Positions 4,776 to 14,305 of a stretch of 64,000 nt of DNA are shown in pieces. Position 1 is the first letter of the stretch. Each line of letters opens with the position of its first letter. The translations under genes were made by a program, and so were the position numbers. The notes beneath the pieces were generated by a model. It made no database searches. It saw only the letters and a list, made by a program, of their open reading frames with translations, and had not been told where the DNA came from. The stretch is from the NCBI RefSeq assembly GCF_040359615.1, contig NZ_CP132942.1, positions 3,286,001 to 3,350,000 of the forward strand, written 5' to 3'. The stretch comes from Tunturibacter psychrotolerans. Lineage in GTDB: Bacteria > Acidobacteriota > Terriglobia > Terriglobales > Acidobacteriaceae.

Positions 4776-4820
4776 CACGAGATTTTGACTCGCAGAAGAG
4801 ACGAGCGGACAGGGAGAGAG

Positions 4821-5159
4821 ATGACGGGGACAGAGCTTGCGGTGGCCGGTATGGGGAGTGTTGGGACGAAGAGTCTGGATCTGGTAAAGACGGCGCCTGG
4901 TGCTCCATGGATAACGCGGATTGAAGAGCATCCATCGTGGGAGATGCTGTCGCAATTGCGGATCACGATGCGGGTAGGAGTGCCTTTGAATCGGTTCCGG
5001 GTGCGCGACGTGCTGACGCTGAAGGTAGGCCAGGTGTTTGAAAGCGGTTCGCCTGAAACGGAAGATGTACCGCTGATGGTCGGTCAGGTGCAGTTGGGTT
5101 GGAGTGAGTTTGAGGTCGTGGATCAGCGGCTGGGACTTCGGTTGACACGCCTCGGGTAG
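4821..5159 (+). CDS. FliN/SpoA-domain flagellar switch protein (second copy)
   Basis: 112 residues from ATG 4821, preceded by AGGGAGAGAG. A TTG at 4785 is in frame but has no such site. The C-terminal 75 residues carry a SpoA/SURF fold pattern: LRITMRVGVPLNRFRVRDVL, VGQVFES, then VQLGWSEFEVVDQRLGLRLT. The normal FliN is encoded separately at 13002, so this is an additional C-ring-type SpoA protein. It sits between fliL and fliO, where many bacteria place fliM/fliN. It could be a FliN paralogue in the C-ring or a sorting-platform partner for export. The role beyond SpoA-type interaction is inference. Confidence 0.75.
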   Translation: MTGTELAVAGMGSVGTKSLDLVKTAPGAPWITRIEEHPSWEMLSQLRITMRVGVPLNRFRVRDVLTLKVGQVFESGSPETEDVPLMVGQVQLGWSEFEVVDQRLGLRLTRLG

Positions 5160-11924: not shown

Positions 11925-11974
11925 CGCTCTGATTGAGTTGTCGTGAGAGATCTCTAACCAGAGAAAGGTATGCA

Positions 11975-12988
11975 ATGGGAAAGCAGCTTGGGCAGGGAGA
12001 TATCGATGCACTGTTTGCGGCGGCCGGGGCAAATGCTTCTGAGCAGGTAGAGGGCGCAGAGGCCGAGGTGCCTCTGGAGCAGTATGACTTTAGTAGCGCG
12101 GGTCAGATTAGCAACGATCAAATGCGTGCGATCAGTTCGGTCAACGACCTGTTTGCCAGGAATCTAATGCATACCCTTGGTGCATGGCTGAGGACCCCGT
12201 TCAAGATGAAGCTAGTGGCGGGCGAGCAACTCCCCTTCAGCGAATTTCTGGAGCGGCTCTCATCGCCGAATTACATCTGTTCGATTCGGTTGGAGCCACT
12301 TGGGGCAGTTGGGTTGCTGGAACTGGAGCTGGCGCTGGCGTCGCCCATTGTTGATGTATTGCTTGGTGGGGTGGGGCGGGCCTGGCCGGCGCGGGAGTTG
12401 ACGGATATCGAAGATGCAATTCTGACGTCGGTTGTGCAGATGACGGTGAAGGAGTTGAACCTGGCATGGCAGTCGGTCGGGTTGGAGTTTGTTTTCGAGA
12501 AGCGAGAGACTGACGCTGCGGTGGCGCGGTTGCTAACCTCCGGGGAAAAAACGCTGTGTGTCAGCTTCGAGGCGCGTATGCCTGAGGCTCAGGGTGCGAT
12601 GAACATCTGCCTCCCGGCAGTTGTCTTGAATGCGATTCTGCGACGGTTGATCTCTGAGGGGGATCGTCCCAAGAGACGATCGAAGGAGGCGCAGGCAAGG
12701 ATGCGCGAGCTGTTGGCTGAGGTAAAGTTCGGCACCGCGCTGCAGTTTCCATCAATGCGTCTAAAGGCGAGTGAGTTGGCGGCCCTGGAGCCGGGCACGG
12801 TGTTGCGTCTTCCGTTAGCGAAGCACTCGATCTCGGAGCTGCGCGTTGGCGGTCTGCAGCTTGGGAGAGCGCACCCGGTGCGGACTGGCGAGCATCGCGG
12901 GGCTCAGTTAGAGGGCGAGATCGACGGCGAAATCTTAAACGATGCCTTGGAGAGTCAGGGCGTGGTCGAAACCATGAGTGTGAACTAG
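11975..12988 (+). CDS. fliM: Flagellar motor switch protein FliM
   Basis: 337 residues from ATG 11975 (GAGAAAGG upstream). An in-frame start at 11933 would add 14 unlikely residues. The N-terminus has LGQGDIDALFAAAG, the FliM CheY-binding segment. Next come the CheC-like middle domain (NDLFARNLMHTLGAWLRTPF, GLLELELALASPIVDVLLGG) and a C-terminal SpoA domain (about residues 255-330). It links the CheY signal to rotor direction in the C-ring. fliN follows after 13 bases. Confidence 0.96.
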   Translation: MGKQLGQGDIDALFAAAGANASEQVEGAEAEVPLEQYDFSSAGQISNDQMRAISSVNDLFARNLMHTLGAWLRTPFKMKLVAGEQLPFSEFLERLSSPNYICSIRLEPLGAVGLLELELALASPIVDVLLGGVGRAWPARELTDIEDAILTSVVQMTVKELNLAWQSVGLEFVFEKRETDAAVARLLTSGEKTLCVSFEARMPEAQGAMNICLPAVVLNAILRRLISEGDRPKRRSKEAQARMRELLAEVKFGTALQFPSMRLKASELAALEPGTVLRLPLAKHSISELRVGGLQLGRAHPVRTGEHRGAQLEGEIDGEILNDALESQGVVETMSVN

Positions 12989-13001: not shown

Positions 13002-13310
13002 ATGGACAAGGTGATTGGCTCGGATGAGATAGCTGGGATTGATCCAGGGATCGGGCTATTGTGTGACATTGAACTGGATGCGACGCTGCAGTTCGGTTCA
13101 CGCGATATGCCGTTGCGGGAGGTGTTGCAGTTGGGGCCGGGGGACGTGGTGGAGTTGGACCGCCACGTATCGGAGCCGGTTGACCTGATAGTGGGTGACA
13201 GGATTGTGGCTCGGGGTGAGGTGGTCGTTGTCAGTGGCAACTTCGCTCTGCGCATTACCGAGGTGGCGACGCCGCAACTGAGACTGGAGAGCATTCGATG
13301 CCTTTTCTAA
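13002..13310 (+). CDS. fliN: Flagellar motor switch protein FliN
   Basis: 102 residues consisting of a short N-terminus and one SpoA domain: CDIELDATLQFGSRDMPLRE, VLQLGPGDVVELDRHVSEPV, then DLIVGDRIVARGEVVVVSGN. These match the FliN family well. It forms the base of the C-ring with FliM and binds the export ATPase regulator FliH. GGAGGGAACGGGTT precedes ATG 13002. The final 13 bases overlap the next gene, an unusual arrangement that couples a non-classical gene to the motor-switch pair. Confidence 0.95.
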   Translation: MDKVIGSDEIAGIDPGIGLLCDIELDATLQFGSRDMPLREVLQLGPGDVVELDRHVSEPVDLIVGDRIVARGEVVVVSGNFALRITEVATPQLRLESIRCLF

Positions 13311-14305
13311 CGAAGAAGACGGGAGCGATGAGGGTGAGCGCACTGATGCCGAGTGCCTTGAGGGCAGGGAATGGAGTGGCCTGGCAGGAGGATGAGTACA
13401 GGCCGTCGAACGAGTTGGAAGGATTGACGGGATATGGGTTTCCGTCTCCTAAGGAAAAAACATCGCAGCGAAGGGTCTGCGGAAACTTAGAGTGTGAGAG
13501 TGGTTGGACGATGCCATGGCGAAATCGGCGGCGGCCGATCTTCGAAGGACAGTGGGGCTGCAGCGGACGTTGTGTGCTCACAATGGTGCAGGCTGCGGTG
13601 CGTCGTGAACTTGGTGAGGGAGGAACGTCAGCTGCTTTGTCTCCGCACCGGCATAGAGTACCGCTCGGCCTGCTCATGCTGGCGCAGGGGTGGATTACTC
13701 ATCCGCAGCTCCAAAAAGCGTTGGCGGCGCAGCGGGAGAGCGGAACGGGCAAGATTGGAGAATGGCTTTTGAGTGAGTGCGGCGTGGAAGCAGAGCAGAT
13801 CACGCGTGGGTTGAGCATGCAGTGGGGCTGTCCGGTGCTGACGACCGAAGGGTTTTCTCCAGAGTCGATGGCTCTGGTGATGCCAAGAATATTTGTTGAG
13901 AAGTTCGGTTTGCTACCTCTGCGGGTCGCGGGCTCGCGAATTCTGTATCTTGGGTTTACGGATAGGCTGGATGCTTCTTTAGCATTTGCAATGGAACAAA
14001 TGACAGAGTTGAAGGTGGAGAGTGGAGTTGTTGAGGGGACTCAGTTCGAGGCCGCTCAAAGTAAGCTTCTTGCTTGTGAAGGAGTTGATGCAAAGCTGGA
14101 GACCGCGGAAGATAAGGATTCAATGGCGGCGCGAATCACCGCGATTCTGGAGCAGAAACAACCGGTCGCGGCTCGCCTGGTTAGAGTTCATCAGGACTAT
14201 TGGTTGAGGATGTGGCTGGAGAGTGGCACAGTCGGAAAGACAGGCAGTCTGCCGGTCTCGCACGAAGATGTCAAAGACCACGTTTTCACCATCCGGGTCC
14301 AATAG
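13298..14305 (+). CDS. Four-cysteine plus MshEN/GspE-N-like domain protein, coupled to fliN
   Basis: 335 residues; ATG 13298 overlaps fliN by 13 bases and has TGGAGAG upstream. Residues 61-92 hold two Cys pairs (C61-x4-C66 and C88-x3-C92) around a Trp/Arg-rich stretch, suggesting a small metal site. Residues 122-175 form two 24-residue repeats of the MshEN type: PLGLLMLAQGWITHPQLQKA..Q145 and KIGEWLLSECGVEAEQITRG..Q175, six residues apart. In this family the repeats bind cyclic di-GMP. The first repeat has Pro where Arg is usual. The rest of the GspE-N fold follows to about residue 260. There is no Walker motif, so it is not a secretion ATPase. A role as a c-di-GMP reader for the motor is inference. 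Confidence 0.7.
   Translation: MPFLTKKTGAMRVSALMPSALRAGNGVAWQEDEYRPSNELEGLTGYGFPSPKEKTSQRRVCGNLECESGWTMPWRNRRRPIFEGQWGCSGRCVLTMVQAAVRRELGEGGTSAALSPHRHRVPLGLLMLAQGWITHPQLQKALAAQRESGTGKIGEWLLSECGVEAEQITRGLSMQWGCPVLTTEGFSPESMALVMPRIFVEKFGLLPLRVAGSRILYLGFTDRLDASLAFAMEQMTELKVESGVVEGTQFEAAQSKLLACEGVDAKLETAEDKDSMAARITAILEQKQPVAARLVRVHQDYWLRMWLESGTVGKTGSLPVSHEDVKDHVFTIRVQ

Follow-up and report, generated by a model that had tools for sequence, protein, structure and literature searches.

The route by which cyclic diguanosine monophosphate (c-di-GMP) reaches the flagellar motor has been worked out in few bacteria, and the regulators described there include CheY-like proteins such as Cle. The PilZ-type proteins YcgR, FlgZ and MotL are a further group. 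The MshEN (GSPII) domain, a c-di-GMP receptor in other proteins, is joined to an ATPase part in MshE, PilF and PilB. Here we describe a gene in a 64,000-nucleotide stretch of the Tunturibacter psychrotolerans genome (hereafter the window; contig NZ_CP132942.1, positions 3,286,001 to 3,350,000, forward strand) that follows the flagellar switch gene fliN and encodes a four-cysteine motif together with an MshEN domain (the Cys4-MshEN protein). The family to which it belongs suggests a so far undescribed route for c-di-GMP to the flagellar motor.

The Cys4-MshEN protein differs from MshE, PilF and PilB in having no ATPase part, in carrying four cysteines on the N side of the domain, in bearing Pro at the first Arg place of repeat I and in the position of its gene beside fliN. 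With YcgR, FlgZ and MotL, as far as the available passages on them go, it shares a proposed role as c-di-GMP effector at the motor, but it has no PilZ match. The joining of MshEN to other or uncharacterised domains is a trait shared with proteins already described in the accessible portions of PMC5013675, namely PA3740 and FrgA (both linked to swarming), Bd2402, and fusions with REC, CheA, CheX and HD-GYP; the non-ATPase MshEN proteins are described there with neither a Cys4-MshEN arrangement nor a link to fliN, and are set apart by these descriptions. SwrB of Bacillus is a basal-body accessory, needed for activation of flagellar export, but it is a single-pass membrane protein and MshEN is unmentioned in the available parts of its description (PMC4526659). 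Literature searches returned no description of the Cys4-MshEN family, which, given their partial coverage, is weak evidence of absence.

An MshEN domain without an ATPase

The gene is an open frame of 335 amino acids (aa) with an ATG start codon, and its features are as follows.

13298..14305, forward strand: Cys4-MshEN protein gene, 335 aa, final gene of the window's flagellar run
13298..13462, forward strand: N-terminal tail, residues 1-55, predicted disordered and weakly conserved (predicted local distance difference test, pLDDT; alignment)
13478..13573, forward strand: four-cysteine motif C61-x4-C66 ... C88-x3-C92, residues 61-92, putative zinc site (conserved Cys)
13661..13732, forward strand: MshEN repeat I, residues 122-145 (PLG ... 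Q) (sequence, NF053729)
13751..13822, forward strand: MshEN repeat II, residues 152-175 (KIG ... Q) (sequence, NF053729)
13826..14074, forward strand: C-terminal alpha/beta half of MshEN, residues 177-259 (sub-cut-off Pfam MshEN match; structural match 119-260)
14090..14293, forward strand: alpha/beta segment at the C terminus, residues 265-332, in which W302 and R304 are conserved (predicted structure, profile alignment)

The two cysteine pairs and the two 24-residue repeats, six residues apart, had been picked out by an earlier sequence-only reading of the window and are present as described. The NCBIfam model c-di-GMP_motif (NF053729) matches residues 122-175 with 38.3 bits, a narrow pass over its cut-off of 38.0, and is found at E<=1e-5 in 91 of 92 and in 13 of 13 family members. 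Among PDB sequences searched with phmmer, PilF was the best match (8e-16), followed by PilB and MshE chains, and a structural comparison, whose rows cover mainly residues 119-335, matched residues 119-260 to the MshEN fold. Pfam at E<=1 gave MshEN as the sole family, with no match to T2SSE ATPase or PilZ, which bears out the earlier statements that ATPase motifs are absent and that the protein is unlike YcgR in domain; the alignment to 5zfr stops at residue 231 of 582. The Cys4-MshEN protein is an MshEN protein by fold and motif, and is neither an ATPase nor a PilZ effector.

Conservation was examined in 405 family sequences, reduced to 51 representatives at < 60% identity over the MshEN region. 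Cysteines 61, 66, 88 and 92 are kept in 48, 50, 51 and 51 of these, respectively. Gly 3 is present in all 51 in both repeats and Gln 24 in 47 (repeat I) and 51 (repeat II), and the window's protein has both residues in both repeats. Position 1 is Pro in repeat I of 45 of the 51 and Arg in repeat II of 44; in the window's protein it is Pro 122 and Lys 152, so that neither repeat begins with Arg, and in repeat I of the relatives from outside the class this place is taken by Lys, Arg or Leu. Position 1 may be R, K, P or N in the relaxed pattern of Wang et al., as given in the available text (PMC5013675). With Leu also allowed there, 71 of the 405 sequences contain the pattern twice, 292 contain it once and 42 lack it, so that by this pattern most members are without two perfect motifs.

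The sequence-only reading had correctly noted the Pro in repeat I and had suspected altered binding. In the accessible passages of PMC11731258, the PilF domain GSPII-C has three motifs, the second starting with Pro, and binds c-di-GMP at ~460 nM; binding at 6 nM is given for GSPII-B, whose Arg places hold Lys and Leu, and GSPII-A, in which His ends motif I and motif II is degenerate, is a non-binder. Those passages leave the binding motif pair of GSPII-C unnamed, and any two neighbouring motifs include the Pro motif. Because GSPII-C binds, Pro at the first place of repeat I probably does not prevent c-di-GMP binding, and together with the prevalence of Pro in the family this largely answers the suspicion.

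Outside the MshEN domain, pLDDT falls below 50 at residues 1-3 and 5-55, and a helix is predicted at residues 90-105, at the second cysteine pair. No zinc-finger family was matched in the Pfam scan at E<=1, although the four cysteines are conserved; the CxxxC site presumably resembles YacG or TRASH-type sites. W302 is found in 51 and R304 in 48 of the 51 representatives, and the family profile aligns onward, loosely, into the ASDIHIEP..VR region of PilB chains, where residues 265-332 appear to resemble the start of the post-MshEN region.

Two trivial origins of the frame were rejected. A chance or shadow frame is incompatible with 1905 homologues at E<=1e-3, which may include other MshEN proteins beyond the best 120 shown, and with 75 copies beside fliN. 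A truncated PilB pseudogene is contradicted by the lack of any internal stop in the 75 class members; among nine rows from outside the class four have one or two TGA codons within the matched region, and the printed frame is open through the Cys and MshEN parts in all nine loci.

Confinement to flagellar clusters

13002-13310, forward strand: fliN, the gene upstream (TIGR02480, 84.4 bits against a cut-off of 84.05)
13298..13310, forward strand: 13 bases shared by the fliN 3' end and the beginning of the Cys4-MshEN gene

The fliN stop at 13310 and the Cys4-MshEN start at 13298 give the 13-base overlap recognised in the sequence-only reading, and the GGAG upstream of the start lies within the fliN coding sequence. 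The distribution of the gene was followed in a class sample of 249 genomes, nearly all at least 90% complete, with 8 candidates scored per genome, and in a phylum sample of 297 genomes, with 7 candidates scored each and E cut at 1e-24. In the class sample, family members (>= 133 bits) are cleanly separated from PilB/GspE-sized proteins (<= 85 bits). They amount to 75 copies in 73 of the 249 genomes, and all 75 adjoin fliN (58 by coordinates, on the same strand; the other 17 by inspection of the loci). The gene also follows fliN in all 24 loci taken from named records. No copy away from fliN was found among the 249 genomes with 8 candidates scored in each, and none of any kind in the 101 genomes that have no FliN match at 1e-8. 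Among FliN-bearing genomes the gene is present in 56/60 of family f1, 1/1 of f2, 1/1 of f3, 5/7 of f5 and 10/10 of f7. At the depth scored, the Cys4-MshEN gene is confined to flagellar clusters, and the scattered family unlinked to flagellar genes that would have spoken against the sequence-only reading is not what the class copies display. Two genomes, G237 and G253, carry two copies, each beside its own fliN.

The phylum sample added nine copies outside the class, in families f19, f35, f40 and f44 (E 1.5e-32 to 5.4e-25). All nine loci have flgF-type genes downstream, and eight have fliN upstream, 375 to 2036 bases off; the ninth contig begins too late. In 80 distinct loci with a readable fliN, where the start was chosen mechanically, a possible start overlaps fliN in 54 and lies -13 to +27 bases from the fliN stop in 68. 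In loci L022 and L025, whose starts lie 103 and 198 bases downstream, the pair of fliN codons that forms the ATG is kept as well, so that conservation of the ATG may partly be inherited fliN sequence.

Organism names, shown for few rows of the protein search, are all Acidobacteria, and the closest named matches of the window's genome are Edaphobacter lichenicola strains and Tunturiibacter, which places it in Acidobacteriota. One contig labelled Rhodanobacteraceae (L017) has the same cluster and the same flanking genes, and its label is probably a binning error; the record of L015 is labelled just 'bacterium'.

Proposed function and its alternatives

The explanation that best fits these observations is that the Cys4-MshEN protein would be a cytoplasmic, ATPase-less relative of the N-terminal regions of PilB and MshE, whose two repeats would bind c-di-GMP. 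Made together with FliN, it would act on the flagellar C-ring or basal body, with the four cysteines most likely holding zinc and forming a docking module; ligand binding would then shift the seating of the MshEN and C-terminal parts on the switch complex, and c-di-GMP would in this way tune rotor output. Our confidence in the explanation as a whole is moderate, about evenly poised between right and wrong, while c-di-GMP binding by itself is probable and action at the C-ring or basal body is likely. Observed features are the MshEN domain, its conserved ligand positions, the four conserved cysteines and the link to fliN; from them we infer the ligand binding, the zinc, the partner and the effect on the motor. 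The genome of the window has 10 GGDEF and 3 PilZ matches, which makes c-di-GMP signalling plausible there. A broader formulation is tentative: this family, which occurs in several lineages of Acidobacteriota, could derive from a PilB-type N-terminal part and a Cys4 module and be a c-di-GMP-responsive flagellar switch subunit made with FliN, a motor regulator beside the PilZ (YcgR) and CheY-like (Cle) types. If true, a sensor domain of pilus ATPases, freed of the ATPase, would be tied to the switch genes in these bacteria, a pilus regulator would have been reused in the flagellum, and deletion of one gene would give a direct test.

Several points weigh against this explanation. The 12 putative ligand positions (1, 2, 3, 17, 21 and 24 of each repeat, after the description in the MshE paper) show higher conservation than the remaining 36 (0.70 vs 0.45, p 4.5e-6), but this difference includes shared descent, for which p is uncorrected, and it cannot tell ligand contacts from the needs of the fold, Gly and Leu positions serving both. 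Repeat II of the Cys4-MshEN protein fails the relaxed Wang pattern, the deviation being read at positions 10-11 (Cys-Gly). The MshEN profile search proposed with the sequence-only reading succeeded with NF053729 and failed with Pfam MshEN (PF05157), which scored 16.6 bits against a gathering score of 23.1 and matched residues 177-259, not the repeats; in four relatives the Pfam model passes in L127 (49.1) and L131 (37.0) and fails in L132 (20.6) and L055 (23.0). Copies are absent from FliN-bearing genomes of f6 (64/64), f4 (4/4), f13 (1/1), f1 (4/60) and f5 (2/7), and flagellar genes therefore occur without the Cys4-MshEN gene. Since only 7 or 8 candidates were scored per genome, stray copies could be missed. 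Outside the class, fliN and the Cys4-MshEN gene are separated by sequence that partly holds HDOD-like and DUF2802-like genes, so that the overlap is not universal. The association with fliN, which the earlier reading had proposed to follow beyond this genome, held for every class copy. Finally, the data do not separate control of rotation from control of assembly.

This last point bears on the alternative that survives best, a c-di-GMP-sensing checkpoint of assembly or export that targets C-ring completion or the start of rod export instead of rotation, which we consider rather unlikely. The relatives PilB and MshE are parts of secretion machines, and flgF/flgG-type genes lie downstream not only in all nine loci outside the class but also in many class loci. 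HDOD-like and DUF2802-like frames adjoin the gene in L127, L129, L130 and L134, with weak scores from custom small models; Pfam confirmed the HDOD frame of L127 alone (208 bits), and the DUF2802 match in L127 is below cut-off. These DUF2802-like neighbours may resemble SwrB. SwrB itself activates the flagellar export apparatus of Bacillus, according to the available text (PMC4526659). Against the checkpoint, two rod-type matches in the window's own genome, taken as flgF and flgG by frame size, lie ~340 kb from the Cys4-MshEN gene and fliN, yet the gene remains with fliN.

It is also conceivable, but improbable, that the MshEN domain no longer binds a ligand and serves as a plain protein adaptor, like the PilZ-binding N-terminal domain of Xanthomonas citri PilB; XpsE with XpsL is a further example. 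Retention of Gly 3 and Gln 24 in both repeats, unlike the non-binding PilF GSPII-A, argues against such a loss, as do the K or R before L/I-G in repeat I of several relatives outside the class and the c-di-GMP binding of GSPII-C, with Pro in one of three motifs, and of GSPII-B in the passages cited above (PMC11731258). That the gene is a passenger of the flagellar operon, sensing c-di-GMP but with its target outside the flagellum, such as type IV pili or polysaccharide, is very improbable: known MshEN proteins do act on pili, secretion and polysaccharide, among others, in the accessible parts of PMC5013675, but no copy was found away from fliN or in FliN-less genomes at the scoring depth given, and genome G031, with no fliN, fliM or flhA in the 19 kb around the site, has just a 3' remnant.

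Neighbouring genes and the slot after fliN

11933..12988, forward strand: fliM (Pfam FliM 129.7 bits; TIGR01397 173.9 against a cut-off of 219.6)

The run upstream on the same strand comprises a fliK-like frame (Pfam score below cut-off), flgD, a hook-region frame, fliL, a second FliMN_C protein, fliO, fliP, fliQ, fliR, flhB, flhA, a sigma factor, fliM and fliN, followed by the Cys4-MshEN gene; the hook frame, fliP, fliQ, fliR, flhB, flhA and the sigma factor were named from reading their translations. The second FliMN_C protein (window 4785-5159, forward strand, between fliL and fliO; 39.5 bits, cut-off 23.8) provides an extra FliN-like protein in this cluster. The FliN-ending frame has ~100 aa in the window and ~270-360 aa, including an extended N-terminal part, in L022, L055, L057, L065 and L070. 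Downstream of the Cys4-MshEN gene, the opposite strand carries a putative peptidoglycan-binding protein and a DegP-like protease, as read from their translations.

G031 has no full Cys4-MshEN copy. Its weak match (E 4.8e-8) was considered as a divergent copy and rejected, as it proved to be a 3' remnant (L060:9585-9797) matching residues 266-332 with 25 of 71 columns, 35% identity. The stretch is continuous with a sigma-54 activator frame and lies next to the same peptidoglycan-binding neighbour; its first half looks like that frame, and the true remnant is probably the last ~30 residues. The site has the look of a scar left by deletion of a flagellar cluster.

In five clusters of a second type (L065-L069), an HDOD-like gene, checked with Pfam HDOD in L065 alone (53.2 bits), replaces the Cys-MshEN gene between fliN and flgF. 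G031 has an HDOD-like gene after fliN in its flagellar cluster, elsewhere in the genome, and so does one cluster each of G003, G006, G020 and G027. In L107 and L108, flgF-type genes come directly after fliN, and the models found neither an HDOD-like nor a Cys-MshEN gene there. A short DUF2802-like gene occupies the slot after fliN in L073, L074, L127 and others (Pfam sub-cut-off where tested, in L073 and L127), and in L127 it adjoins both the HDOD and the Cys-MshEN genes.
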